Both the position numbers and the translations under genes were made by a program. This document shows positions 24,549-49,397 of a stretch of 64,000 nucleotides of DNA, piece by piece (within the stretch, counting starts at the first letter, position 1; every line of letters begins with the position of its first letter). The stretch is from Symbiodinium natans. Taxonomy: Eukaryota > Sar > Dinophyceae > Suessiales > Symbiodiniaceae. The notes beneath the pieces are model-generated. The model ran no database searches. It was not told the origin of the DNA and saw nothing but the letters and a program-made list of their open reading frames with translations. Location: contig CAJNDS010002489.1 in NCBI GenBank assembly GCA_905221605.1, forward strand, positions 186,001 to 250,000, read 5' to 3'.

Positions 24549-25388
24549 CTAATTAACGTGCTGATGCTGACATTGATGACAGCAGCAACCTTTCACGCCC
24601 AGGCGCTGGAGCGCTCCCACGGCACTTTCCCGAGCCAGAGGCGTGCCGCTGCTCACAAGCCGCACCAGCAGCGGGATGGCGCCGGCCTTTGCGATGGCAA
24701 TCTTGTTGTCGTCATTGCCCGCCATTCTATGGAGAGCTCCCGCGGCCACTTCCCGAGCCAGAGGCGTGCCGTCGCGCAGGAGCTGCACTAGCGGCGGGAT
24801 GGCACCGGCAGTTGCGATGGCAATCTTGTTGTCGTCATTGCCCGCCATTCTATGGAGAGCTCCCGCGGCCACTTCCCGAGCCAGAGGCGTGCCGTCGCGC
24901 AGGAGCTGCACCAGCAGCGGGATGGCACCGGCATTTGCGATGGCAATCTTGTTGTCGTCATCTCGGGCGAGGTCCTTAAGCTCGCTGGCGGCCTTTTCCT
25001 GGGCCTCTGTAGCTGCAAAGTTTCGAAGGTCCTTGACAAGAGAATTCAAAGAATCAGAAGAGATCCCTGAGCAGCGATCTGCTTGCACTTGCACACCACC
25101 CTGGCAGTCTTCTCCCGGCTTGGCATCATTCAAACGCTCCTCTGCTTGGATGTGGAGGCGGTGGAGCTCCCAAAGCGATTTGCTGCAGCTCCATGAGTCC
25201 GATGCCGCGATGCTGATGCCCGGGCCTGTGTCCTTGACCTCCTTGCCATTTGGGTCCAGGCAACTGAAGTCGAAGACCTTCCGCAGGCTTGCAACGACGG
25301 CCTTGCGCAGTTCCTCTAAGAAGTCCTTCACGCATGCCCCACCAACAAGACAAACTCTCGAACTCAATGCGGAGTAGTCTGCTGAGCA
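24549..25388 (-). CDS. Armadillo-repeat exon (C-terminal part of a multi-exon gene)
   Basis: Read right to left, this gives about 279 residues ending at the stop at 24549. Two nearly identical 41-residue repeats (NKIAIANAGAIPLLVQLL, then DGTPLAREVAAGALHRMAG) are followed by a third that diverges (RLVSSGTPLARESAVGALQRL). A looser one precedes them (SLVKDLRNFAATEAQEKAASELKDLA). This is the armadillo pattern with conserved G-A-I-P-x-L-V and A-A-x-A-L positions, as in plant ARM/U-box proteins, which bind partners through a helical solenoid. The N-terminal 100 residues match no domain I know. No ATG opens the frame; it probably joins the GGDEF-like exon across a 77-nt intron (25389-25465), with TGCT at both junctions. 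The tail is cysteine/histidine-rich, possibly low complexity. Confidence 0.75.
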   Translation of the reverse strand, partial: CSADYSALSSRVCLVGGACVKDFLEELRKAVVASLRKVFDFSCLDPNGKEVKDTGPGISIAASDSWSCSKSLWELHRLHIQAEERLNDAKPGEDCQGGVQVQADRCSGISSDSLNSLVKDLRNFAATEAQEKAASELKDLARDDDNKIAIANAGAIPLLVQLLRDGTPLAREVAAGALHRMAGNDDNKIAIATAGAIPPLVQLLRDGTPLAREVAAGALHRMAGNDDNKIAIAKAGAIPLLVRLVSSGTPLARESAVGALQRLGVKGCCCHQCQHQHVN

Positions 25389-25462
25389 CTGACAAAGAAA
25401 GCTGAATACTGGTTTGTTGGGCTTGATGCCGTGTGTTTTGGCTTGGAGAGCATTGAAACCTA

Positions 25463-25894
25463 GCAGAGCTGCATGGCTGCAAGTTTAGCCGAAAGGTCCT
25501 TGAGATTGTAGTCTGCGCCTTCGCGCGATTCCTCGTGCGAGATGAAGGCTATCGCGAACTCGTCGCCGTGAAAACAGAAGGGCACGCAGACAGCGGCCGA
25601 TTGTTCTTGGTTGAAGGCCCTGCAGTACTCGTCAATGCAGTCTGCCATCTGCATGATGGCAGCGTCGCCGTGGGCATGGGACTCCTGGGACCAGTGGTCG
25701 TTCACCATGAAAGTGTCCAAGTCTGCGGCGGCCATCACGAGAGCCAGCGACCTTCCTTCCAGCAACTTTAGCAGCTTGCCATAGAAGGCTTTCCCTCGCA
25801 GTAGTGTCAGTGGATCATAGTACATCGCATTGAAGTCTTTTCGCTCCATCGCCGCTTGAACAAACTCCGCGTCCAGCATTGCCAGCTGGACCTC
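25463..25894 (-). CDS. GGDEF-like domain exon
   Basis: 144 residues on the minus strand. It keeps the order of a GGDEF fold: D-P-L-T-L-L-R near the start (D-x-L-T-G-L-x-N-R in the family), AAADLDTF with VND (metal-binding D in D-h-D-x-F-K-x-h-N-D), SHAHGDAAIMQMADCI (G-H-x-x-G-D-x-x-L), and HGDEFAIAFIS in place of GGDEF. Known: GGDEF proteins make cyclic di-GMP from two GTP; such domains are rare in eukaryotes (for example Dictyostelium DgcA). The G-to-H change at the first signature position leaves activity uncertain. The acceptor is probably CTCAG at 25895-25899. The frame ends in TAG at 25460, just past the proposed donor. The downstream neighbour is the ARM exon, so the gene may be a GGDEF-ARM fusion. 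Confidence 0.65.
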
Positions 25895-29290: not shown

Positions 29291-31916
29291 CCGAGCGCCT
29301 CCGTCATTCCTCGCACCGCCCTTCGGCATCGCACCCTTCGAGGCAAGTGCGTTTGGGATGCGCAAGGCACGGAGGCCGGTTAAACAGGGTTTAGGGTTTA
29401 GGGTTTAGGGCCTTAGGGTTTAGGGGTGAGTGTCTTAGGGGTTTTGGGTTAGCACCTTAGGGTTTTGTAGGGTTCAGGGCAAGTTTCGGGTTCAGTCACG
29501 TGGGGTTTAGGGTGCAACATTTAGCAGCTTAGGGCCTCAAGTCCTCCAACGACTCAATGGACCTTGTTAGGCTTTAAGGCGCCGATGCTGTTTGCAACCC
29601 TAGAAACCCTGAAGCCTACACCGAGTGGAAATGTGCCTTTGCAGCCATAACTTTGGGCAGCGGAGCTTTGCCAGGACCTTTTCCAGGGCCTGCAAAGCCA
29701 CTGGCGGCAGATACCAGATGGCGTTGCATGGTTCCTGGTTCCTGCATGCTTTTATCTCTCCTGCTTCTATACTCAAGGATGGCAAGCGAAAATTCCTATC
29801 ATGTTTGGGGTCTACTTCGGGGGAAGGGGTTCTGCAACAGCCCAAGAGTCTAGACCCAAGAGTAAGCTAGGAATATATAAAAAGGGTGCCCGTTTTAACA
29901 ACGTTTTTGGTTTTAAAGGGGCTTCTAAGATTCTGAAGGAACCTAAACCCTGAACAAAAAAGGAACCTAGGAGCAGTACTTCCCACTTAACTGCACAACT
30001 GCTCGGAGCCAAAAGGATGGGAAAGGACTCCACTAAGCTTGACCGGGACAAATCCGAAAAGCAGCTTGAAAGGATCATTCTTCTCTATAATGTTCCCGTG
30101 TTGTTGACGTACGGTTAGGTTGGGACTCGAAAATGGCGGGCGCCTTTGGCTTTGCCTTTGGCTCCCTTTGCCGGCGCCGTAGATGCTGTAGGAGCGGCAG
30201 AGTCTGCACCTGGCAAGGCGACATCGGAAGAAATACCCGTTGTCGGGCATTCCGTGTTCAAGGCATCTCAGCATCTGTGAATGCTTTTGCCAACTTGCAA
30301 ATTCTGGGGCTTGCATGGCCACCCATTGTGTCCCAACCTGCATGTCAGATTTTAACGTAAGCTTCGGGTCTGCTGTGTTGCTACCCATGCTTCCACCGTA
30401 TCTGGCTAGCTGTTTGCGAGCCTTGATCACTGGGCGGCGCTGTCGGCGCCGCTTCTTCTGAAGGCTGCAAGGCTGTTTCGGCTGAAGCTTCTGCGTCTGT
30501 CGCCCGGGTGTCGTAGGGCCAGCTGTCAGCAAGAGAAGAAGCACGTTGACGCACCTGCTCCAGGCGTGGACTGCGGCGGCGGCGGCGGTGCCTGCCACGC
30601 TGAAAGAATATCATCACAAAATGGCCTTAGACAAGCGTGACTCAACCTCAATGAAGGCATCTGGCGCAACTCAAAATTAACAAAGACTGAGGCTCCGCCC
30701 TCTGCCCAACTGTGCTCCAGAAATGATGTTTTCTCGGAGTTATCGAAGACTTGTGTTTACAGTTATCTCGGTGAAGTGTCCGCATCTTGGGCAGGGTGTC
30801 GGATTTAGCAACTTAGGGCCTCAGTCCACCAACGACTCAATCGACCTTGTTCGGCTTTAGGGCGCCGACGCTGTTTGCAATCCTAAAAGCCTACACCCTT
30901 GGAAATGTGCCTTTGCAGTCAGCGGAGCTTTGCCAGGACCTTTTCCAGGGCCTGCAAAGCCACTGGCTGCAGATACAAGACGGCGAAGATAAGGAGGGCA
31001 AGATTTGCATGGTTCTTGTTTTTTTAAAGATTCTGTCCTACTTCTACTCAAGGATGGCAAGAGAACATTCCTATCATGTTTGGGGTCTACTTCGGGGGAA
31101 GGGGTTCTGCAACAACCCCAGAGTCCAGACCCAAGAGTAACCTAAGAATAAAAGGGTGCCCGTTCTGTTTTAAAGGGAACTTCTAAGGGAATCTAAACCC
31201 TGAAAGAAAGCAATAAGGGCCTACTCTGGGTCTTAGGAGTTGTACTTCCCACGTAACTGCACAACTGCTCGGAGCGAAAAGGATGGGAAAGGACTCCACT
31301 AAGCTTGACCGGGACAAATCCGAAAAGCAGCTTGAAAGGATCATTCTTCTCTATAATGTTCCCGTGTTGTTGACGTACGGTTAGGTTGGGACTCGAAAAT
31401 GGCGGGCGCCTTTGGCTTTGCCTTTGGCTCCCTTTGCCGGCGCCGTAGATGCTGTAGGAGCGGCAGAGTCTGCACCTGGCAAGGCGACATCGGAAGAAAT
31501 ACCCGTTGTCGGGCATTCCGTGTTCAAGGCATCTCAGCATCTGTGAATGCTTTTGCCAACTTGCAAATTCTGGGGCTTGCATGGCCACCCATTGTGTCCC
31601 AACCTGCATGTCAGATTTTAACGTAAGCTTCGGGTCTGCTGTGTTGCTACCCATGCTTCCACCGTATCTGGCTAGCTGTTTGCGAGCCTTGATCACTGGG
31701 CGGCGCTGTCGGCGCAGCTTCTTCTGAAGGCTGCAGGGCTGTTTCGGCTGAAGCTTCTGCGTCTGTCGCCCCTGGGGTGTCGTAGGGCCAGCTGTCAGCA
31801 AGAGAAGAAGCACGTTGGCGCACCTGCTCCAGGCGTGGACTGCGGCGGTGGCAGCGGTGCCTGACACGCTGAAAGAATATCATCACAAAATGGCCTTAGA
31901 CAAGCGTGACTCAACC

Positions 31917-32207
31917 TCAATGAAGGCATCTGGCGCAACTCAAAATTAACAAAGACTGAGGCTCCGCCCTCTGCTCAACTGTGCTCCAGAAATGATGTTT
32001 CTCTGAGTTATCGAAGACTTGTGATTGCATCTTGGGCCACTCAAGGCTCAACGCTTCTGTCGCAAGTGCTTCTTGCATGGGCCTGCGCTTGTGCACCCGC
32101 ACCTTTGCCAGGACCTGACAGACAGTCTGCACAACCCAGCGACACCAAGGCCCGAAAATGTCAGGCGCCTTTGGCTTTGCCTTTGGCTGCCTTTGCCGGC
32201 TCTGCAA
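31917..32207 (-). CDS. Exon-like frame in tandem unit 3, paralogous to 32647-33081
   Basis: 96 codons, nearly identical to the C-terminal two-thirds of the unit-4 frame, ending at the same relative stop. Differences include DI for DF and RW for RR near the middle. Confidence 0.3.
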   Translation of the reverse strand: MQSRQRQPKAKPKAPDIFGPWCRWVVQTVCQVLAKVRVHKRRPMQEALATEALSLEWPKMQSQVFDNSEKHHFWSTVEQRAEPQSLLILSCARCLH

Positions 32208-32646
32208 CTGCTTCAGTAGCTGCAGAGTCGTCGCCTGGCAAGGTGACAGCAGGAGAGAAATGTCCGCACAAAGTCCTCAGGACATCGTGAATGCTTTTGC
32301 CAGCTTGAAAATGCTGGGGCTTGCATGGCAACGAATGGTCCCAAGCTGCACCTCAGCCTTTGAGGTAAGCTTCGGGTCTCATGTGTTGTTACCCATGCTT
32401 CCATCTGGCCAGCTGTTTGCGAGCCTGGCGCTGTCGGCGCAGCTTCTTCTGAAGGCTGCGGGGTTGTTTCGGCTGAAGCTTCTGCGTCTGTCGCCCCTGG
32501 CACGTGGTGTCGTAGGGCCAGCTGTCAGCAAGAGAAGAAGCACGTTGGCGCACCTGCTCCAGGCGTGGACTGCGGCGGTGGCAGCGGTGCCTGCCACGCT
32601 GAAAGAATATCATCACAAAATGGCCTTAGACAAGCGTGACTCAACC

Positions 32647-33081
32647 TCAATGAAGGCATCTGGCGCAACTCAAAATTAACAAAGACTGAGGCTCCGCCCT
32701 CTGCTCAACTGTGCTCCAGAAATGATGTTTCTCTGAGTTATCGAAGACTTGTGATTGCATCTTGGGCCACTCAAGGCTCAACGCTTCTGTCGCAAGTGCT
32801 TCTTGCATGGGCCTGCGCTTGTGCACCCGCACCTTTGCCAGGACCTGACAGACAGTCTGCACAACCCGGCGACACCAAGGCCCGAAAAAGTCAGGCGCCT
32901 TTGGCTTTGCCTTTGGCTGCCTTTGCCGGCTCTGCATCTGCAATTGTTTCAGTAGCTGCAGAGTCGTCGCCTGGCAAGGTGACGTCAGGAGAGAGACGTC
33001 CAGTGTGGGTACCTCCGTGTTCAAAGGCATCTTGGGCACAAAGTCCTCAGTACATCTGTGCATGCTTTTGCCAGCTTGCAA
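32647..33081 (-). CDS. Exon-like frame in tandem unit 4
   Basis: 144-codon minus-strand frame, the longest coherent reading in the array. It includes LNTEVPTLDVSLLTSPCQAT, then RQRQPKAKPKAPDFFGPWC, QTVCQVLAKVRVHKRRPM, and ALATEALSLEWPKMQSQVFD with NSEKHHFWSTVEQRAEPQSL. The same frame is kept in the neighbouring unit (31917-32207), which supports it being coding or recently so. No domain recognised. It may be an exon of a small basic protein family or a decaying copy. Confidence 0.35.
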   Translation of the reverse strand: MQAGKSMHRCTEDFVPKMPLNTEVPTLDVSLLTSPCQATTLQLLKQLQMQSRQRQPKAKPKAPDFFGPWCRRVVQTVCQVLAKVRVHKRRPMQEALATEALSLEWPKMQSQVFDNSEKHHFWSTVEQRAEPQSLLILSCARCLH

Positions 33082-34219
33082 ATTCCCGGGCTTGCAAGGC
33101 CACGAATTGTGGGAAGTATTTAGCTACGCAACAAAACCCAGCCAAAGGGACCTCCTAGCCTGGCAGTAATGAGAACGCAAGTGCTCAAGCAGCGCGTAGA
33201 CAAACCCTGAGATGGTGGAGTCGCGAGTCTTAAGCAGTCCCAACAGCAACGAGTGAGACTCTTGACCGGCCCTTTCAAGAAGAGATCCCTCCTCAAAGCA
33301 GGCCAGGGCCGAATCGAACATCCCCACCCCCTGGGTCGTGTTGGGCGGGAAAAGCAAAATGCTCACACAGGGCTCAGCTAACACACAAGGCCAACCCTCC
33401 TGCAACTACAAGCCCTGTAGGAAGAGCCACAAGCTTGCAGCAATGCACAGCAAGCTTGACCTTTAGCCTTGCGCTCGCGCAACGCAACAACGCAAACCAG
33501 CGCAAGACAAACCTTGTTGCAACGCAAATACTTGCCACTTAGATACATGCACGCATGCACCTGGCGTCCCAAGCTGCATGTCAGCTTTTGAGGTAAGCTT
33601 CGGGTCTGATGTGTTCTGGCCCGTGCTTCCATCTGGCCAGCTGTTTGCGAGCCTTGATCACTGGGCGGCGCTGTCGGCACAGCTTCTGCAGAAGGCTGCG
33701 GGGCTGTTTCGGCTGAAGCTTCTGCGTCTGTCGCCCCTGGCACGTGGCGTCGTAGGCCCAGTTGTCAGCAAGAGAAGAAGCACGTCGGTGCGCCTGCTGC
33801 AGGCGTGGGCGGCGGCGGCGGGAGTGGTGCCTGTCACGCTGAAACAAATGGCCTTACGCAATGCTGATTCAGCTGAAGGCAAGGCATCTGACGCAACTCA
33901 TCACAAAGTCTCATGCTCCGCCCCCTGCGCAACTGCGTTCCAGACGTGTGTTGTTTGCTCTGAATTCGAAGACTGGTACTTGCAATTATCTCGGTAAAGC
34001 GCCCTTGGGCAGCTCAAGGCTCAAAGCAAGTGCTTGTCGCATGAGCCTGCGCTTGTGCACCACCTTTGCCAAAACCTGACAGATCTGCACTTTCCAGCGA
34101 CATCTCACTTTACACTTGCTGGTCCAAGCCGCCTTTGGCTTTGCCTTTGGCTGCCTTTGCCGGCTCTGCAGAGTCTTCACCTGGCATGGTGACATCCGGT
34201 GTCTGGGGTCGGTCTGCGG

Positions 34220-34555
34220 TAAGAAGAAAAACAGACGTTGCCAGCACCAACTCCAGCATGAACACTAACCTTCATGCCACTGTGCTACTGGTACTCTTGT
34301 GCTGATGCTGCTGCGTCTGCCCGCTCGCATGCTAGCTACTGCATGTACTAGTGCTAATCCGAATGCTAAGACTAGTAGACGAGTAGCAGCAATATACGTA
34401 TACCAGTACGAGCTATAATACTAAGTCACCTAAGACCAAAGCGGGAAAGAAAGAAGGCAATTAACACCAGAACAAAAAGCACGACACGTGAGAATTCCAA
34501 GCTAGCATGACGTGCCTTCAGCAGAAGTGCTGGTGCCCCCCCGGCCTCACCGGGT
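34220..34555. other. No gene supported
   Basis: Unique sequence between the tandem units and a telomeric array; rich in CTAGTA words at 34340-34380. Confidence 0.4.
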
Positions 34556-40754: not shown

Positions 40755-40777
40755 TAGTATAGGGGGGAACATCCCCA
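40755..40777 (+). mobile_element. MITE family C, right-arm remnant
   Basis: TTAGTATAGGGGGGAACATC matches the right end of the copy at 53697-53774. Four bases separate it from the TAGGG duplication of the retroelement. Confidence 0.6.
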
Positions 40778-40780
40778 GTT

Positions 40781-40785
40781 TAGGG
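40781..40785 (+). repeat. Target-site duplication, left (TAGGG)
   Basis: TAGGG immediately left of the 5' LTR, matched by TAGGG right of the 3' LTR (49393-49397). The reconstructed empty site reads as TTTAGGG followed by TTTAGG, so integration was into an interstitial telomeric repeat. Confidence 0.85.
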
Positions 40786-41072
40786 TGCGGAGCTGCAATT
40801 GGTATTGTAGAAAGGAGTTAGTGTTGGAAGTTGGAAGGGTTAATGAACCCGGTAATCGTATTTGGCTCAAGATGGGCTTGAACAGAAAGCCACAAGTTCA
40901 AAAAGTAGTGCCTGGGTTCTTAGGGTTTGGTAAGGGTGTGGATTCCTTCCCCCTTTCCTTCCCCCCTGGGTTGCTCTTATCCGTGTTCTTGGTTGTTTCT
41001 TGGTTCGATCTGGGAAATATAAGTTCAGGGCGATTAGGGGAGTTGATTTCCTTCCTTGGTTGTCCCCCCGTA
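40786..41072 (+). repeat. 5' LTR
   Basis: A 287-bp direct repeat identical to 49106-49392, starting TGCGGAGCTG and ending CCCCCCGTA. Shared sequence runs one base further left (a G that also belongs to the TAGGG duplication), so the boundary was set by the target duplication. It contains a spliced-leader-like stretch followed by ATG at 40872. The whole repeat is open in the frame of the first large ORF, which is unusual for an LTR. Confidence 0.9.
40849..40871 (+). other. Spliced-leader-like sequence inside the 5' LTR
   Basis: The segment ends in TTTGGCTCAAG, identical to the last 11 nt of the conserved dinoflagellate spliced leader (which ends CCATTTTGGCTCAAG). The bases before it, starting CCGGTA, weakly resemble the leader's 5' half with gaps. 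ATG follows directly at 40872 in the frame of the first large ORF. It is repeated at 49169-49191 in the 3' LTR. An 11-base match has roughly a few percent chance of occurring somewhere in a window this size, so the position just before an ATG in an LTR carries much of the weight. Confidence 0.5.
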
Positions 41073-41085
41073 GGTTATGAGCCCA
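41073..41085 (+). other. Primer-binding site for an initiator tRNA-Met half molecule
   Basis: GGTTATGAGCCCA directly abuts the 5' LTR. Its reverse complement, TGGGCTCATAACC, reads as the anticodon stem-loop of initiator tRNA-Met: the CAU anticodon in its loop and the GGG of the stem. Known: Drosophila copia is primed by a tRNA-Met fragment cleaved in the anticodon loop and has GGTTATGGGCCCA just inside its LTR, one difference from this site. Inferred: minus-strand synthesis starts here from a half-tRNA. Confidence 0.8.
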
Positions 41086-41138
41086 AATTAGGTTCCCTGC
41101 GGTTAAGTGTTCTTTCAAGGTTTTGGGATCAAGAAGCA

Positions 41139-44100
41139 ATGCCTTCTCCGAAGCGATGGCTCCAACTTGCCTCGGATGGTGGACAAGATGGTGGAGCTGG
41201 AAATGGTGCAGCTGAGTCTCTGGGTGAAAGATCGGTGTTGGAAGAGGTGATTCCCGACGCTGAAGTACATCTGGAAGAGGCCTTGGTTGCAGAAAGCCCC
41301 AATGCGGGTATGAATCCCAATAGGGATATGGTTAGCAATGCTGAAGCTGAAGGACGTGCTGTTTCTGTACCGCCAAAGCCTGGTGAAAAAAGGAACTGGG
41401 ATGCGACTGGTGGCATAGATCGTGAAATGGAGGTGACTGTTTTACGAGTGTTACACAAACACGGGTACCAGCCGTCGTCTTCGACTTCGGGTCGAATGGT
41501 AGACCAAGAGTCTCAGACCGATCTGATTGGAGAAGTGCTACAAGCGACCAGGAGGCCGTTGAACAAGATCAAAAAGGGTCCATCTTCGAGTTCCCAAGGT
41601 GGTGGAAGCGGTCACAAACAGAAGGGTGCGGACGGCTTTGAAGCTGCACCTGCTGCTGAATACGCCATGGGGGAGGAGGAGATCCTACAGATGGAGGCTG
41701 AACGGTTGCGACAGCTGTCAGAAGAAGAGGACGAGATGCGACAGGTTTCTGAAAGGGACGGTTTTCGGAAAGACGAGCATCTGATCCAAGCGTGTGATGG
41801 CACAATGTGGGAATTGCACCTCCATGAAGATGGGAGACAATATTATTACTGCCTGGATACGCACGAAACCAAGTGGACATTGCCGGTGGTAGGTGAAAAG
41901 GTGAAGAGTGACGAGGTGGTTGGGTCTCCTTTGGGCAATGAGCTGGAAATGGAGGCGGCACTGGATTCTTCATCCTCTACTCCGAAGACTGAGTCTACGA
42001 GGGCATTCCAGGGTAGTGTAAATAGTTTAGGTGAAAAAGATTTTTCCTCTACTATCAGGGATAGCGGTCCTAGGGCTGATGGTGACGCCCCGACCCCGGG
42101 TTCTCCTGATGAGGAAGGGATTCCTGGGAACCAAGCCAACATCGCTGGAGCTCAACACCTGGATCGGGAAGAAACAGAAGCGCTTTCTGAGGGTGGGGCA
42201 GCGATGGAATTGGTGGATCCAGAAGAGAAAATGCCCAATGAGGTGATCGGAACTGTGTCGGCTGCAGAAGAGCGAGTGGTGGATGTGGTACCTGTTGTTC
42301 AGGAAGGTGGTCCTGGAGATTCGGAGGATGGAGAGAAAAAGTTGTGTGTTACGACTGAGGAGGTCTCTTCGTTTGGTGCCAAGAATTCTGCCATTCAAGG
42401 GGAAAAAGAAGCTTCTGGAATAGCTGGAGACACGGATGATCTGAAAAATGAGGCCTGGAGCGCCAATGATGCGCGGGTTGATGCGCCAGATATTACCTGG
42501 AGTGCGAAGGAAGCACGGGTTGAGGTGCATGTGGTGGTACGTTCCACGGGCGACTGCAACAATGGGGCGCAGGTCTCCGCAGCAGCTGATGATGGAGGTT
42601 CACAGGTGGACGCACTGGTGCAACCTGAAGTTAGCAGCGAGGAACGAAATGACAAGGGCTACACCGGAGCCAATGAGGCAGCTGTGGTCAATGATGGTGG
42701 AAATTCTCCTTTGGAGGCCATGGAACCAAAGGAGCCTGCGGTGGAAGAAAGCGTGCCTGCCGTGGATGATCGACTCAATTGCCCTGCAGTGGAAGAAGAT
42801 TTGCCTGCTGCAGAAGGTGAGACAAAGGACTCCAATGATGGGTCCACTCCCATGAAGGGAGAAGCGTTGCCGTCTGGAAGTTCACCGGAAGTCGACACCG
42901 AGCGAACTACAGCAGATGAGGCAAAGCCGTTGGCGGAGAAAAAGGGAGGTCCTGAAATCCAGGAGCACAAAAAAGATGAGCTTGTGGGACTCGTGGAGCA
43001 GGACGAGCAGTGTGACCCAAAGGTGAAGACAAAGGATGCGCCAGGAGCCGATGATACAGAGATGGTTTCTGAAGAGCGTGTAAAGAAAGTGCCCCGAGCG
43101 GGAGCCTTGGAGTCACCTGGGCCACATTGCTATCAAGAGGGAGATGAGATCATGGGTCTGGTGCGCTGCATCAATGGGTATGGAGCCTTTTTGGACCATG
43201 GGGATATGAATGTATTGATTCCTGCAGAAGGGAACAATGCATATCAGTTCAAGTTTGGTGATACTGTCAATGGAACAGTGAAACGAGTGGAAGATGATGG
43301 TACCATAATCTTGGACACCTTTCTGGTTTTGGAAGAGGACGTGGAGGACTCTTCTTCGACGCTGCGGAAGTGGAAACCCAGCGGCTGGAGTACGTGGTGG
43401 ACGGATTCATGGTATGCTGGTCAATGGTACCAAGATTCCAACGGTCAATGGGACTGGAAACAGGAGGAAGAGCAATCCGATGAAGAGCTTGTGGTACAGG
43501 AGTTATCCTCTGAAGAACGAGAAGAAAGGCAACTTTATGGAGAAAAGATCTACAAAGCTCTTCTGGAGAATGGAAATGAAGAGGAAGCCTATGTTGGCAA
43601 AATTACTGGGATGCTGTTAGGTCGGCCGATGGAAGATTTACAGGAGTGTGTTGCGGATCAGGCATTCCTCAATGCGGAAGCTCGGCGCGCGTATGGCATC
43701 TTGCAAAATGATGGTTGGAAGCCTGATGGTACAGAAAGCACAGGCTTGGGGAAGTTAACCACTTTTTCCCGAAAACAGTACCACAACGCGCTTTTCGAAC
43801 TGGCATGCAGAAAAAGGAGATTTTCTCGACCAGTTGTGGGTGAAGCGGTGGCAACGGTGCTGAATCAAGGGGAAGATGAGTTTTGGAACGCGCTTTGGTT
43901 GGACACCAAGCTATTTTTGCAGGAGCTTGATGGTGCAGTGCAATCCATGAGCAAAAGGGAGAACAAGCCAATGGAAGCCTACATGGATCCTGACCAGTAC
44001 AAAAAGGCTTACATGACACCAAAGACGGTGTTGTCACCTGGTTACAGCAAGCTGTGCAGGTTCTTCAATAAGGGAAGGTGTCGCAATGGCGATGGGTGTC

Positions 44101-45278
44101 CCTATGAGCATCGTCGGTACGGTGAAGGTTGGCCAGAAGGGGGGTCAACTGATCCAAAGAATAGCCAAGAAGCTGATGATGAGGACGGGAACATCGGTGA
44201 CCCTCCCACAGAGGAAGGTACAGTGGATGAGGCACAGCAGGAGCGGGAGGATTTAGCCTTCCGGGCCAAGTACAATTTTGGCAAAGGTGCATCAAAGGGT
44301 GAGCCTACGTCAGGTGAGCCAAAAGGTCGGCTGTGTCTGTATTACAATCAAGGTGGTTGTAAATATGGGACTGCATGCAGGTACCTTCACAACGATGATG
44401 TAGCATTGGAAGGGACTTGGGAGCCCGGCAAATCTTGGGACAATGCTTCCAGGAAGTCACTAAGGGACGCAGGGTTCCACAATTGCTGTTTCGATTATTA
44501 CCTCAGAGGACGTTGCCGGAAAGGGTTAAATTTCTGCAAGTACTCCCATGACGAGATGTCAGAGGAGCGGTTGTCGCTCCTGAAACACTTGGTACAGGTG
44601 GCCAATCAGGTCCGGTTTGAAAAAGAGAGAGGATGGGAGCTTACGGATAGAAGCACTTTTCAGCCACCTGCGAGTGGGGGAGCTGAATCTTCCTCATCCT
44701 CGGCACCAAAAGCGCTGCAAATGACCAATGTGTCACAAAAAGATGGTGAAAAAGGTATTCTGGATGAAGTAGAAGCTGATGAGCAAAAGAATTCGGTGGC
44801 TGCATCCACTAGTACTCAGCTTCACAATCCGGAGGAGCCGATTGAAAATTGGATGGCTCGCAACGCACACCTGTGGGTGTATACCCCTCATGTAAGTGAG
44901 GTGATGATTACGCTTGGTGTGACCAATGTGTCGGACTTGCAAGAGTTCATCTTTGTGGAAGATTTGGTTGACAAAGGGATCAACAAAGTGACCGCATGCA
45001 AAATTCTGCAATTGGTGGGTGAGGTCCGATATCGACCGGGAGGACCGGAAAAGGCAGTTCCGTCTGATGCATCTGTACGGGTACAACAATCTTCTGGGAA
45101 CAAAGGGACTGGAAGAGCGGCGGCGCGAACCCTCACTCAGGTGCGTGAAGCTGAAGACTCCGGTGCAAAAACTATGCCGAGAGGTTCCTATCGGGAGCTT
45201 TTAGCCACTGGAGCCGGTGAAACCTCGTGGTGGTTTGTCGTATCCATTCAGCAGAGCGTGGGCAGATGTGGTGGATGA
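41139..45278 (+). CDS. Element ORF1: acidic protein with WW-like motif, S1-like domain and three CCCH zinc fingers
   Basis: 1379 aa from ATG 41139, the first methionine after the primer-binding site. The frame is open further upstream through the 5' LTR, where ATG 40872 would add 89 residues with a hydrophobic stretch. Domains seen: WW-like motif at aa 223-249 (W, YYY, W-x-L-P); long acidic, low-complexity region to about aa 650; S1-like RNA-binding fold at about aa 665-735 (GLVRCINGYGAFLDHG, then GTVKRVEDDG); three CCCH fingers at C973/C981/C987/H991, C1066/C1074/C1080/H1084 and C1117/C1126/C1133/H1137; a small helical C-terminal region at about aa 1238-1295 that might be SAM-like. Inferred role: nucleic-acid-binding Gag-like particle protein, with CCCH fingers in place of a CCHC knuckle. 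It overlaps ORF2 by about 74 nt in the +1 frame. No enzymatic motif was found. Confidence 0.85.
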   Translation: MPSPKRWLQLASDGGQDGGAGNGAAESLGERSVLEEVIPDAEVHLEEALVAESPNAGMNPNRDMVSNAEAEGRAVSVPPKPGEKRNWDATGGIDREMEVTVLRVLHKHGYQPSSSTSGRMVDQESQTDLIGEVLQATRRPLNKIKKGPSSSSQGGGSGHKQKGADGFEAAPAAEYAMGEEEILQMEAERLRQLSEEEDEMRQVSERDGFRKDEHLIQACDGTMWELHLHEDGRQYYYCLDTHETKWTLPVVGEKVKSDEVVGSPLGNELEMEAALDSSSSTPKTESTRAFQGSVNSLGEKDFSSTIRDSGPRADGDAPTPGSPDEEGIPGNQANIAGAQHLDREETEALSEGGAAMELVDPEEKMPNEVIGTVSAAEERVVDVVPVVQEGGPGDSEDGEKKLCVTTEEVSSFGAKNSAIQGEKEASGIAGDTDDLKNEAWSANDARVDAPDITWSAKEARVEVHVVVRSTGDCNNGAQVSAAADDGGSQVDALVQPEVSSEERNDKGYTGANEAAVVNDGGNSPLEAMEPKEPAVEESVPAVDDRLNCPAVEEDLPAAEGETKDSNDGSTPMKGEALPSGSSPEVDTERTTADEAKPLAEKKGGPEIQEHKKDELVGLVEQDEQCDPKVKTKDAPGADDTEMVSEERVKKVPRAGALESPGPHCYQEGDEIMGLVRCINGYGAFLDHGDMNVLIPAEGNNAYQFKFGDTVNGTVKRVEDDGTIILDTFLVLEEDVEDSSSTLRKWKPSGWSTWWTDSWYAGQWYQDSNGQWDWKQEEEQSDEELVVQELSSEEREERQLYGEKIYKALLENGNEEEAYVGKITGMLLGRPMEDLQECVADQAFLNAEARRAYGILQNDGWKPDGTESTGLGKLTTFSRKQYHNALFELACRKRRFSRPVVGEAVATVLNQGEDEFWNALWLDTKLFLQELDGAVQSMSKRENKPMEAYMDPDQYKKAYMTPKTVLSPGYSKLCRFFNKGRCRNGDGCPYEHRRYGEGWPEGGSTDPKNSQEADDEDGNIGDPPTEEGTVDEAQQEREDLAFRAKYNFGKGASKGEPTSGEPKGRLCLYYNQGGCKYGTACRYLHNDDVALEGTWEPGKSWDNASRKSLRDAGFHNCCFDYYLRGRCRKGLNFCKYSHDEMSEERLSLLKHLVQVANQVRFEKERGWELTDRSTFQPPASGGAESSSSSAPKALQMTNVSQKDGEKGILDEVEADEQKNSVAASTSTQLHNPEEPIENWMARNAHLWVYTPHVSEVMITLGVTNVSDLQEFIFVEDLVDKGINKVTACKILQLVGEVRYRPGGPEKAVPSDASVRVQQSSGNKGTGRAAARTLTQVREAEDSGAKTMPRGSYRELLATGAGETSWWFVVSIQQSVGRCGG

Positions 45279-48200
45279 TGATGACCAGGCGGAGGCTTTG
45301 GTCTCGTATGCCGCTTCCTCAAGCGATTCAAGCGAGGAGGAGACCAATGCGGTACAACGCCTGAAGGAAATCTTTTTGCAAGAAAGGGATTCGTGGAGAA
45401 CTGCGAGTCGTGGCAATGTTCCACAAAGTGGTTCTTCAGGCTCCAATGCTGGGCCGAAAAAATCGGTTCACCTTGGCGAAGGGCGCGACAAAGCGTCGCG
45501 GGGGGAGACCCGCCAAGAAGTGACTTCTCAAGTTTTTTCGCTACCACAACCTTCTCGTCGAGCTGAACGGTCTCAAAAAAGAACAAGGGATGGTTCAGTT
45601 ATGGTTGGTTCGCTGGCGGTGGGCTCCACGGATGAGGTTTTACCTGGGCAAGGTGCTGCTGGACAGGTGAATGTCTCTGAAAGCGCTCAAGTTCTTCCTG
45701 GGCATGAAGTGGCTGGACAGGAGACGGCGCCGGAAGGAGCAGTACAGATTTCTGGCGAGGAGACCGACCAAAAAGAAGGAGAAGGCGGGAGCAATGATCT
45801 CCGTGGTAATGATGCGAAGATGTTGGATGGTGGTCCGGTGAGGAGTGACCTTCAGCAATTGCTGGTGAAAGGCCTTCTGACTCGAATTTATTGGAAGGTT
45901 GCAGTTGGCAAGTTGCCAATGGGGCAAAGAGATTGCCAAAAAGGGTCCAATAAGATGGATCGAAATTTGGTTATTAGCATGTCATCCGAGGGTGCAAGCG
46001 AACAGGATGAGAACCTGGCACTGGAGGACGATGCTGATCAGTCAATGGGAGACGGTGCAATGGTTATGGTGTATGATCCAGGAACGCTGATCCAGTCGCC
46101 AACAACTGATTGGGTTATGCGTCGCGGTCTGACCGATCGTACCGTCTGGCCAGCAATGGCGCACCTGGCACAGAGGATATGTGCTGAAATGGTTCAAGTG
46201 GATGAAATGAATGCCCAGCTAGGGACTGGAACACTCCTTTTTCAAAGGAGAGATCAAGGACATTATACTGACCTGCATCATTCGTTCCATGACAACCCGT
46301 GCTTGCCGGCGGTGGGGAATTACCCTCTTTCGGTGATGGGTACCTTGTTGTCTCCTGGTCTGGAAGGGGAATTCAAGAATACGGACAAGTTTGGTACTGC
46401 TATGGAGGCAATTGCCTATGATTGGAGCCGCAGTCCAGGCATGGAAGTTCATATTGAACTTATGGCGAGGGTAGCCAAAATGGTTCACCCATTCCTGAAT
46501 CTGGGAGCACAAGGGTCGGTGATGGTTTCAGAATTTCTCTGGCAGCGCGGGAGGGCTCGGTTGATGGAGTTTCTTCAAGCGGCGACTTGTGCGGACCAAT
46601 TGGAGGCTCTCTGGAGAAGGATGGACGACGATGCGGATGAGGAGGTGGATCCTTCGACAGCGATGCTGGAAGTTCTTGGACTAGAGGATGCGGTGCTTGA
46701 TCAAGGGAACAATGAATCCCTTATTCCCGTTGAAGATGCTGGAGGTGAGACAAGCGGTGACACTGGAGGGAAGGGCAAAGCGCCAGAAGTTTCTCCGGAA
46801 GAGGAGAAATCCAGTGGGTCATCCAGACTGGCGGACACAAGGATTTTCTTGTGGTCAGTGTACTCCCGCGTGGCTTCGAATTTCTCTATGCAGGACCGCA
46901 CTACTGGTAAGATCTTTGACAGCACCAAAGGATATCCTGGTGAAGGACCAAACAATGATGACAATCCTTCCTCTAAGGGGAACTTTCCCTGGATTTCAGA
47001 AGACTACCTTGACGAAGTGGTGTCAAAAAAGATGGAAAGGTCTTCAGAGATGGATGGGTTTGTTCCGGGAAGTGAGGGATCATTGGAAAAGGTAGAGGTG
47101 GAGAATGTCACTGCCTCTAAAATTCTTATGGCTCTTTGGAAGAAGGGACATAGAGTTGGGTTTAGAAGGTTGCGTCGTTTGAATGCATCTGGATGCAAGG
47201 TTGGAGCAATGAAACGTCCAATCAAAAGGGTGCAGAAGATTGGCGCTAGGAAGGCCTTCATGAAGATGTTCAATGTTTTTGGATCGTCTCAGCATGGCTC
47301 AGGAGTTGGCGGAAAACCGATCATGAAGGTGGTAGGACCAAGGCCAGGTTTTCCAGCTGTACTCCAAGCACCAAATACTGATAGCACGTCGGGTGAAGGG
47401 AGCAGTCCCCAGGTACATGGCAATGTTCATGTAGAGCACAGTCGCCCTATGGACCGGTATGAGGCAGAGCGCTTGGAGAAGAGGAAGAAGGGTTTCTGCT
47501 ATTGGTTTGGCAAAGGGAAAGATCGCTGCAAATTTGGTGACGACTGCAAATTCATCCATTCCGAAGATGATGTGGTGCTACATTCATATTGGTGCAAATA
47601 CTATGTGGCAGGGAGAGAATGTTTCGCTGGAAAGGATTGTGGGTTCTCGCATGATGCAACTGGTGTGAGGTGCGTCCAGTTTGCTCGGTCTGGGAAGTGT
47701 CGATTTGGTGACAGGTGTGTCTTCGAGCATGGTGTTCCGTTGGAAAAACAGAGGCCAAGGTCTCCAAGGACGCCCCCAAGGGATGGTCCAAGGAGAAAGT
47801 CTGGTGCAAATGGTGGAGAAAAGGAGATCCCTCCTGAACAGTTCGATGATGATGAGGAGGATTTTATGGTTTATGACGAAGAGACCAAGATGACGGAACT
47901 GTTGATGGAGGCGATTTCATTTCTCTCCGGTGGCAAGCCAGATTTGGCTCGAGCAGAGGCGGACCCATTGTTCAAACTCCTGAAGTTCACTGGAGATGCT
48001 GACCAAATGGATCAAGTATGGGTTTCGTGGACCACTGAAATGTTGTCAGTGCTGGAACTTCTCGAAGTAGTGAAGTCGTATGATGTTTCGCTCGCGGAGG
48101 TGGAAGAATGGGTCAATGACCTGAGGATATGGTATGAGCGAGCCAATTTGGGAGAAGAAAAGGATCCCAAAAAAGGGAAAAAGAGGTCCCTAGAAGGGGA

Positions 48201-48735
48201 GTCCAGCAAAGATATTCCTGCCGAAAAAGAAGTGGTTGAGACTTCGGAGACGGAGGTTGCCGTTGAGGAGGAGAAGAAAAAGGTAAAAAAGAAGAGGAAA
48301 GCTGCAGCTATCGAAGATCCTTACACTCTCATGGTTCCAAAGCCGAAGAAGATGCCGGCGATCATTGAGAAGGGTGGATCAACATCCAATGTGGTGGCTT
48401 CTGCAGTGGAAAAATCCTCGAAGACGCGCACAAAGTCAAATGTCGGTGGAAAGACAAAGAAGAAGGAGAAAAGTCAGAGTCCCAAAAAAGAAGAGGTGGT
48501 AATGGTGCACGATCCTGAGGAAAAGGATCGTCCATCCGATGCGGAGGCACCAGGGTCTGCCAATGCGAATGAAGAGCTGGGTCAATCTTGCCAGGCGATT
48601 GAGGACGCAAAGAGAGAAGGATTGGTATCCTCAATTCAAAGGGGCATACAGGATCCTATTCTTACGATTTCGGACCTGGAGTATATTCTGCTGCAACTTC
48701 ACCTCAAGATTGCCAACAATCGGAAAAAGAAGTGA
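45205..48735 (+). CDS. Element ORF2: second CCCH zinc-finger protein, probably expressed by +1 frameshift or splicing
   Basis: Open for 1176 codons after TAG at 45202. The first ATG comes only about 125 codons in, so independent initiation at the start is unlikely; a GTG lies at 45217. The frame is +1 relative to ORF1, and the overlap is 45205-45278. Seen: acidic serine-rich N-terminus, a structured middle part (about aa 210-510, with repeated W and charged residues), then three tandem CCCH fingers at C765/C775/C781/H785, C797/C806/C812/H816 and C823/C832/C838/H842. A helical stretch follows at about aa 890-985, then a lysine-rich, NLS-like tail with KKxKKKRK-type runs. No protease, integrase or polymerase motif is visible. 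It may form one about 2550-residue polyprotein with ORF1 through frameshifting, or the break may be a single indel or an intron. Confidence 0.78.
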   Translation, partial: PLEPVKPRGGLSYPFSRAWADVVDDDDQAEALVSYAASSSDSSEEETNAVQRLKEIFLQERDSWRTASRGNVPQSGSSGSNAGPKKSVHLGEGRDKASRGETRQEVTSQVFSLPQPSRRAERSQKRTRDGSVMVGSLAVGSTDEVLPGQGAAGQVNVSESAQVLPGHEVAGQETAPEGAVQISGEETDQKEGEGGSNDLRGNDAKMLDGGPVRSDLQQLLVKGLLTRIYWKVAVGKLPMGQRDCQKGSNKMDRNLVISMSSEGASEQDENLALEDDADQSMGDGAMVMVYDPGTLIQSPTTDWVMRRGLTDRTVWPAMAHLAQRICAEMVQVDEMNAQLGTGTLLFQRRDQGHYTDLHHSFHDNPCLPAVGNYPLSVMGTLLSPGLEGEFKNTDKFGTAMEAIAYDWSRSPGMEVHIELMARVAKMVHPFLNLGAQGSVMVSEFLWQRGRARLMEFLQAATCADQLEALWRRMDDDADEEVDPSTAMLEVLGLEDAVLDQGNNESLIPVEDAGGETSGDTGGKGKAPEVSPEEEKSSGSSRLADTRIFLWSVYSRVASNFSMQDRTTGKIFDSTKGYPGEGPNNDDNPSSKGNFPWISEDYLDEVVSKKMERSSEMDGFVPGSEGSLEKVEVENVTASKILMALWKKGHRVGFRRLRRLNASGCKVGAMKRPIKRVQKIGARKAFMKMFNVFGSSQHGSGVGGKPIMKVVGPRPGFPAVLQAPNTDSTSGEGSSPQVHGNVHVEHSRPMDRYEAERLEKRKKGFCYWFGKGKDRCKFGDDCKFIHSEDDVVLHSYWCKYYVAGRECFAGKDCGFSHDATGVRCVQFARSGKCRFGDRCVFEHGVPLEKQRPRSPRTPPRDGPRRKSGANGGEKEIPPEQFDDDEEDFMVYDEETKMTELLMEAISFLSGGKPDLARAEADPLFKLLKFTGDADQMDQVWVSWTTEMLSVLELLEVVKSYDVSLAEVEEWVNDLRIWYERANLGEEKDPKKGKKRSLEGESSKDIPAEKEVVETSETEVAVEEEKKKVKKKRKAAAIEDPYTLMVPKPKKMPAIIEKGGSTSNVVASAVEKSSKTRTKSNVGGKTKKKEKSQSPKKEEVVMVHDPEEKDRPSDAEAPGSANANEELGQSCQAIEDAKREGLVSSIQRGIQDPILTISDLEYILLQLHLKIANNRKKK

Positions 48736-49092
48736 TTGGATGGTATGGATGAAGGGATGGTTTTTCTCTTTCTGGAGACCGGTGCGCTGGAACAGCCAAT
48801 GTGCTGACAATGTGGTGGTTACTATTAAGGGTATGGAAATCCCTGATAGTAGGAGTCAGTAGTTTTTCGCGTAGCGAAGACCACGGTTTGTGGTGAAGAA
48901 GGCCAAGGAGTCTTCAGTGATGAGAGGATCAAGGTGAAAAAAGATTCTCTATGGGTAGTAGGTTAGCCAATGTGCTATAATTCCGTCCTGGAAGACGTTA
49001 AACCACAATTTGCATTTCAAGCAGCTGGCTGCTGCCGTAATGGCAGTTTTTGGCCAAAAGATCTGCATCTCCAATGTGTCCTAGGAAATCCT
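48736..49092 (+). other. Untranslated 3' interior of the retroelement
   Basis: 357 bp between the ORF2 stop and the polypurine tract, with no long frame. It contains GTAGTTTTTCGCGTAGCGAA near 48860 (a short inverted repeat around TTCGCG/CGCGAA) and a second inverted motif CCTAGGAAATCCTAGG at 49080. Packaging or processing roles are possible but unsupported. Confidence 0.5.
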
Positions 49093-49105
49093 AGGACAGG
49101 GGGAG
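49093..49105 (+). other. Polypurine tract
   Basis: AGGACAGGGGGAG sits directly upstream of the 3' LTR and is purine except for one C, as expected for the plus-strand primer of an LTR element. A short perfect palindrome-like pair (CCTAGG ... CCTAGG) lies just before it at about 49080-49095. Confidence 0.65.
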
Positions 49106-49392
49106 TGCGGAGCTGCAATTGGTATTGTAGAAAGGAGTTAGTGTTGGAAGTTGGAAGGGTTAATGAACCCGGTAATCGTATTTGGCTCAAGATGGGCTTG
49201 AACAGAAAGCCACAAGTTCAAAAAGTAGTGCCTGGGTTCTTAGGGTTTGGTAAGGGTGTGGATTCCTTCCCCCTTTCCTTCCCCCCTGGGTTGCTCTTAT
49301 CCGTGTTCTTGGTTGTTTCTTGGTTCGATCTGGGAAATATAAGTTCAGGGCGATTAGGGGAGTTGATTTCCTTCCTTGGTTGTCCCCCCGTA
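49106..49392 (+). repeat. 3' LTR
   Basis: Second copy of the 287-bp repeat, base-for-base the same as the 5' copy as far as can be read by eye. It is preceded by a purine tract and followed by TAGGG, then telomere-like DNA. Confidence 0.9.
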
Positions 49393-49397
49393 TAGGG
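49393..49397 (+). repeat. Target-site duplication, right (TAGGG)
   Basis: Partner of 40781-40785. A 5-bp duplication is the size expected for copia-type integrases. Confidence 0.85.

Follow-up and report, generated by a model that had tools for sequence, protein, structure and literature searches.

An LTR retrotransposon in the window

The window analysed here is a stretch of 64,000 nucleotides from the dinoflagellate Symbiodinium natans (contig CAJNDS010002489.1, positions 186,001 to 250,000), taken from an assembly of 759 Mb in 2,543 contigs. Positions 40786-49392 of the window are occupied by a retrotransposon with long terminal repeats (LTRs), flanked at both ends by the 5-bp duplication TAGGG. 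The two LTRs (40786-41072 and 49106-49392) are identical at 287/287 bp, and a primer binding site (PBS) and a purine tract are also found, so that two LTRs, short duplication, PBS and purine tract, which together define an LTR retrotransposon, are all present. Taken alone the TAGGG duplication is weak evidence because TAGGG occurs 11 times within the 500 bp to the left of the element, but the case is strengthened by other copies in the genome: in all eight full copies that were fetched (8,842-8,849 bp) the 5-bp duplications match, being TAGGG in five, CCCTA in two and AGGGG in one. The first-pass annotation of this DNA, which had recognised an LTR element here, was in this respect correct. We take the PBS, GGTTATGAGCCC, to be complementary to the anticodon arm of an initiator-Met tRNA. 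The features of the window copy are as follows (ORF, open reading frame; UTR, untranslated region).

40781..40785, no strand: target-site duplication, left copy (TAGGG), inside a TTTAGGG-type tract; the site type is repeated in other copies
40786..41072, plus strand: 5' LTR (TGCGG...CCCGTA), with 40 scored genome matches of 1,365 candidates
40861..40871, plus strand: TTTGGCTCAAG, identical with the final 11 nt of the spliced leader of dinoflagellates, a possible relic; also at 49181-49191 in the 3' LTR
41073..41084, plus strand: primer binding site GGTTATGAGCCC, directly 3' of the 5' LTR
41139..45278, plus strand: ORF1, N-terminal half of the single family ORF; its last ~25 codons are out of frame, from the deletion
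41808..41890, plus strand: WW-like domain, limits approximate; profile match to the PRPF40A WW chain (E 0.007), absent from the Pfam results
43134..43313, plus strand: S1-like RNA-binding domain, below the Pfam cut-off (E 0.2 in the window, E 0.05-0.19 in three relatives)
43512..43700, plus strand: MLLE domain (poly(A)-binding-protein C-terminal type); Pfam 28.7 bits against a cut-off of 27, solved-structure profile E 3e-4
44055..44555, plus strand: three CCCH zinc fingers of the first half (Pfam; ligand conservation)
45199..45206, plus strand: junction where a 239-bp deletion throws the window copy out of frame, place approximate
45205..48735, plus strand: ORF2, C-terminal half of the family ORF
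47497..47730, plus strand: three CCCH zinc fingers of the second half (Pfam; ligand conservation)
48929..49105, plus strand: 3' UTR with the purine tract at its end, common to the Pol-bearing partner (84% over 270 bp including the LTR start)
49093..49105, plus strand: polypurine tract AGGACAGGGGGAG, adjoining the 3' LTR
49106..49392, plus strand: 3' LTR, same sequence as the 5' LTR
49393..49397, no strand: target-site duplication, right copy (TAGGG), then TAGGGTTTAGG

One giant protein and no Pol

Two long open frames are found in the interior, 40758-45278 (1,379 codons from the ATG at 41139) and 45205-48735 (1,176 codons). They had been read as two giant proteins, and this part of the first-pass annotation has to be given up in favour of a single one. 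Three protein searches, each scoring about 8,000 candidates, returned 24, 36 and 31 proteins (the last including the query), with 51 distinct identifiers; these relatives are present in the database because their frames are open. The end of the first frame is reached by 24 relatives; in 20 of them the sequence goes on into the second frame after 71 or 81 intervening residues, and in 4 it does not. Three long relatives have 2,606, 2,609 and 2,435 residues, and the last of these is 99% identical to both window halves and stands for a cluster of 288 sequences. The LTR starts are spaced 8,559 bp apart in six of the eight full copies and 8,555 and 8,562 bp in the other two, compared with 8,320 bp in the window copy. 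As the relatives are in frame through the junction and the full copies are 239 bp longer, the two window frames are halves of one ORF, the second frame being the product of a 239-bp deletion; for the same reasons a programmed frameshift between the two frames was rejected. Within the overall explanation given below, the window copy is probably a young member of its family in which this deletion has broken the ORF.

The family protein contains six CCCH fingers and an MLLE domain, while the S1-like and WW-like regions are weaker. In an alignment of the 51 proteins plus both window frames, the complete set of four zinc ligands was kept in 29/30, 29/30, 26/27, 16/17, 17/17 and 16/16 of the rows covering each finger (24/27 for an overlapping register of the third), and the ligands were better conserved than neighbouring residues. 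In relatives P0009, P0004, P0013, P0049 and P0050 the C-terminal half is made up of alternating blocks of two subfamily types, a pattern that recombination of co-packaged RNAs or gene conversion would be expected to produce. No relatives of the element were found in the viral and prokaryote collections; 27 prokaryote matches to a 17-mer of the LTR were taken as chance, as blastn of the LTR and interior against that collection was empty at E<=1e-3.

The absence of a visible Pol, which had been noted from the letters of the window, is borne out by profile searches. No reverse transcriptase (RT), integrase, protease or RNase H was detected in the window frames with Pfam (E<=10) or NCBIfam (E<=1), and no Pol domain with profiles of solved-structure sequences (E<=1), so that neither frame holds a recognisable Pol remnant; three full-length relatives that were scanned (2,435-2,609 aa) were likewise without Pol. 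All 11 relatives reaching the C-terminus stop within 12 residues of it, hence there is no Pol downstream in frame. The family is therefore non-autonomous: none of the four enzymes is encoded, yet many dispersed copies with identical LTRs exist.

Genomic copies and purifying selection

A genome search with the LTR gave 1,365 candidates, and the best 40 that were scored were all 100% identical over 287-288 bp; because such a search reports the best-scoring copies only, the identical LTRs of the fetched copies are partly a selection effect. The pattern of LTR end plus PBS (up to 3 mismatches) was found at 794 places in the genome and its control at 0. In six of the eight full copies a single frame of 2,611-2,612 codons opens at one common ATG, whereas in L059 and L060 it is broken.

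Among the six open copies, the two broken ones being left out, the ratio of nonsynonymous to synonymous differences (pN/pS) had a mean of 0.42 (15 pairs, range 0.20-1.11), and 54 of 92 variants were protein-changing where 73% would be expected (p 0.0015). The choice of open copies biases such tests somewhat toward conservation. Simulated neutral drift to 70% identity introduced a mean of 22 stops in the first half of the ORF and 18 in the second, unlike the real family frames, which stay open at 50-70% identity. Judged from this dN/dS-type comparison across copies, which the first-pass annotation had called for, purifying selection acts on the coding region.

Insertion at one phase of telomere-type repeats

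The repeat TTTAGGG is given as the dinoflagellate telomere type (PMC11453091). Thirty LTR loci were read, 24 of which are 3' LTRs of distinct elements, and in 19 of these 24 an exact TAGGGTTTAGGG or CCCTAAACCCTA comes next (binomial p 2e-39 at the window rate). All 19 exact sites are in two complementary phases, which make up 14.5% of the exact telomere-type 12-mers in the window. Exact sites have a rate of 0.53% both in the window and in the genome, at which 794 insertions placed at random would give about 4 exact joints. Genome-wide, LTR ends followed by the phased pattern (two letters allowed per place) number 418 compared with 5 for the control, and the pattern is exact in 88 of the 100 listed. 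The insertion site can be written TT^TAGGG^TTTAGGG, i.e., one phase of (TTTAGGG)n, and it is common to the family of the window and to the longer class of elements described below. Insertion is thus at a fixed position of the repeat and above the base rate, which makes it telomere-repeat-specific. Off-phase exceptions are L029/L030 (C2256; AGGGG) and L054 (C1723; GCCCT), both in degenerate telomere-like sequence.

A Pol-bearing class with the same ends

It had been predicted that a Pol-bearing partner is present in the genome, and this is what was found. From the pattern listings (100 places each for LTR end plus PBS, up to 3 mismatches, and for LTR end plus target, none allowed) 44 of the 100 listed 5' joints could be joined to a pattern-matching 3' end downstream. 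The spacing was 8.39-8.59 kb in 27 of the pairs, 9.57-9.70 kb in 15, and 12.8 and 15.4 kb in the other two. The long class of 9.6-9.7 kb has LTR start and end, PBS, leader, 3' UTR and purine tract in common with the element of the window. In the copy read the LTR is 221 bp; it shares 89% identity with the window LTR over its first 92 bp, its middle differs, and its end CCCCCCGTA, the PBS and the purine tract agree with the window element. The leader is 93% identical over 45 bp including the LTR end, the 3' UTR with the LTR start is 84% identical over 270 bp, and the right flank is TAGGGTTTAGGG.

The long-class copy that was read encodes what appear to be missing enzymes. An rve integrase core (E 6e-4; retroviral integrase matches, best E 0.006) lies in L100 (C8:174000-176400), an RVT_2 match (E 3e-5) in L097 (C8:176300-178860), and a CCHC knuckle was found with E 0.001. 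Integrase is thus upstream of an RVT_2-type RT, which is the Ty1/copia order, in one copy and with scores below the Pfam cut-offs. The window element itself has no Pol in which the order protease-integrase-RT-RNase H could be read and does not qualify as Ty1/copia on its own; the earlier label 'copia-like' rests on the copia-type partner, with which only the cis ends are shared. The RT of the partner belongs to a family with 73 scored matches (of 2,437 candidates) that are 96-100% identical, and 17 of the 73 lie in open frames of 3,082-3,109 codons. Judged by eye from the coordinates, 5 of the 15 listed long-class elements and none of the 27 listed short-class elements contain one of these 73 matches. 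Other candidates were rejected: the 30 best RVT_2 loci (L066-L095; of 150 scored, 2,237 candidates) had no match to LTR, leader or 3' UTR within about 1.5 kb on each side, and a further copia family (L096) had no such end within 2.5 kb.

Two stretches of the partner were noted by eye. L099 847-2499 contains an FSG...GGPPC stretch resembling a cytosine-C5 methyltransferase (DNMT), with no Pfam match at E<=1, and between integrase and RT (L100, about residues 480-640 of frame 1-2400) there is an HxD...H...R arrangement like that of 2-oxoglutarate/Fe(II) oxygenases, with no such Pfam match.

A spliced-leader-like stretch and other features of the window

Both LTRs contain TTTGGCTCAAG, which corresponds to the end of the dinoflagellate spliced leader (PMC12014239). 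Such a match is expected 0.08 times in the window, and 30 of 5,000 shuffled LTRs score as high. The partner LTR retains it, but the block around it is conserved in any case. For dinoflagellate genes, relic leaders have been described (PMC3229502), and more than one fifth of the genes are reported to carry them upstream (PMC11453091). The match is suggestive of a spliced-leader relic; if it is a true one, it bears on the reverse transcription of trans-spliced RNAs in dinoflagellates.

TTTAGGG-type repeats are extremely common throughout the window (1-64000) and genome-wide. At 29968-34230 direct repeats of a unit are spaced 0.7-1.3 kb apart, perhaps a repeated gene array, and an open frame with armadillo repeats (E 2e-26) is found on the minus strand at 24552-25484.

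A probable protein-coding satellite of a copia-type element

The explanation that we consider best, and hold to be probable, is that the window element belongs to a high-copy family of non-autonomous LTR retrotransposons that code for a protein and are satellites of a copia-type element which resides in the same genome and is specific for telomere repeats. Mobilisation in trans by the partner would be the simplest account, because cis signals and target are common to both. Partner particles would take up satellite RNA via the common leader, the partner RT would copy it from the common PBS and purine tract, and the partner integrase would insert the product into telomere-type repeats. The giant protein most likely binds the satellite's own RNA as well as the poly(A)/translation machinery and may steer this RNA into partner particles. 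A role in the service of the satellite's own RNA is favoured because selection is seen among young copies and because the binding partners of these domains in known proteins are RNA or poly(A)-related.

It is tempting to extend this to a two-part LTR system in which the integrase of the autonomous copia element reads one (TTTAGGG)n phase, the satellite has swapped gag-pol for a giant PABP-like/CCCH protein that secures preferential packaging, and both keep the spliced-leader-like stretch, which might provide a spliced-leader-capped RNA with the terminal match required for strand transfer. As a whole we regard this extended version as tentative, with rather less than an even chance of being right.

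Several observations weigh against the satellite explanation. Only one long-class copy was read, as four separate pieces (L097-L100) and with the right flank only; in this copy the frames are interrupted, RVT_2, rve and CCHC all score below the Pfam cut-offs, Pfam has no match in the main frame of the first piece, and a protease-like DSGA motif and RNase H were recognised by eye only. Ten of the 15 listed long-class elements contain none of the best 73 RT matches. One of the 15 pairs of open copies has a pN/pS above 1 (1.11, few changes). Finally, three of nine full copies (window, L059 and L060) have broken frames yet identical LTRs. These copies speak against a strict need for the protein in cis; the protein may therefore act in trans or be dispensable, unless the breaks date from the last round of reverse transcription.

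An alternative is that the ORF is a captured host gene of RNA biology, carried as cargo by a Pol-less element, and that selection, past or present, has been for the host with the element a mere vehicle. The combination of CCCH, MLLE, S1-like and WW-like parts is indeed that of host mRNA-binding proteins, and dinoflagellate retrotransposons with captured host genes have been described (PMC5890265). However, the 51 relatives look like one family with no separate host gene among them (though the genome was not searched for one), the ORF begins 66 nt behind the LTR and occupies the gag-pol position, and selection is visible among the young copies themselves. We therefore consider host capture unlikely, if still a serious contender.

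Derivation of the satellite from a formerly autonomous element by loss of pol, with a long gag retained, would account for cis ends that are the same as in the Pol-bearing class, and a CCCH motif is compatible with Gag, as one is described in the Gag of Saci-2 (PMC2582038). This is nevertheless improbable. The CCCH proteins gave no tblastn match (E<=1e-3) to the first and last 2.5 kb of the partner, whose resemblance to the window element is confined to LTR ends, leader and 3' UTR, and the knuckle of the partner is CCHC, not CCCH. Loss of Pol by simple deletion is thus disfavoured, and the interior of the satellite looks replaced rather than shortened, as far as the BLAST comparison reaches, which covered the end pieces of the partner and not its middle (L099, L100). 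Passive tolerance, in which insertions elsewhere are lost and those in interstitial TTTAGGG tracts survive, could draw on a genome full of such tracts (4,052,265 exact TAGGGTTTAGGG or CCCTAAACCCTA 12-mers in 759 Mb, control 1,077), but is very improbable since survival bias is unable to pick one phase of seven, as the 19/19 exact sites in phases forming 14.5% would demand, and since TAGGG or CCCTA is duplicated in 7/8 full copies.

Relation to known elements

BARE-2, LARD and TRIM elements rely on the proteins of another element via common cis signals, as the satellite presumably does. Their coding capacity is defective or lacking; the satellite by contrast keeps 2.6 kilocodons under selection, and with 2,611-2,612 codons open in 6/8 full copies its interior is not that of a LARD or TRIM, which is without coding capacity. 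More similar are the TR-GAG elements of plants, described as mobile Pol-less LTR elements of one ORF that exist beside a related, potentially autonomous element (PMC8704663, which also names the parasitism between BARE1 and BARE2). TR-GAG elements encode Gag (562 aa in the example of PMC8704663), whereas the satellite ORF is more than four times longer, with CCCH, MLLE and S1-like parts. Moreover, TR-GAG Gag is homologous to the Gag of the autonomous element, while the satellite protein has no tblastn match to the first piece of the partner (L098, E<=1e-3), a comparison of sequence similarity only and not of fold.

With respect to target, TRAS and SART, non-LTR elements, occupy a fixed position in the insect telomeric repeat unit like the satellite, and do so by an endonuclease and target-primed reverse transcription. 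Here, on the other hand, an LTR element makes a 5-bp duplication, and the presumed partner has a retroviral-type integrase core. Yeast Ty5 favours telomeric chromatin, and what tethers it is silent chromatin rather than a fixed repeat phase. In its priming the satellite resembles Drosophila copia and Ty5, for which half-tRNA and anticodon-loop priming, respectively, with initiator-Met tRNA are described (PMC5371799). The DNMT-carrying LINE and DIRS elements of Symbiodinium are likewise dinoflagellate retrotransposons with captured host-type genes, but are described as having their own RT and neither as copia-type nor as satellites (PMC5890265). Judged by titles and the beginnings of abstracts, no description of the present element was found among the papers that searches of the open-access PMC literature listed.

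Fixed-phase insertion of an LTR element in telomere-type heptamers, with about four million sites in the genome, offers a tractable case of integrase target choice. Satellite retroelements usually manage on cis signals alone, and here 2.6 kilocodons of a non-Gag-like protein of RNA-binding type are kept under selection, as far as the copies compared indicate; the satellite would thus be a natural test of whether satellites can encode a packaging or hijacking factor of their own.

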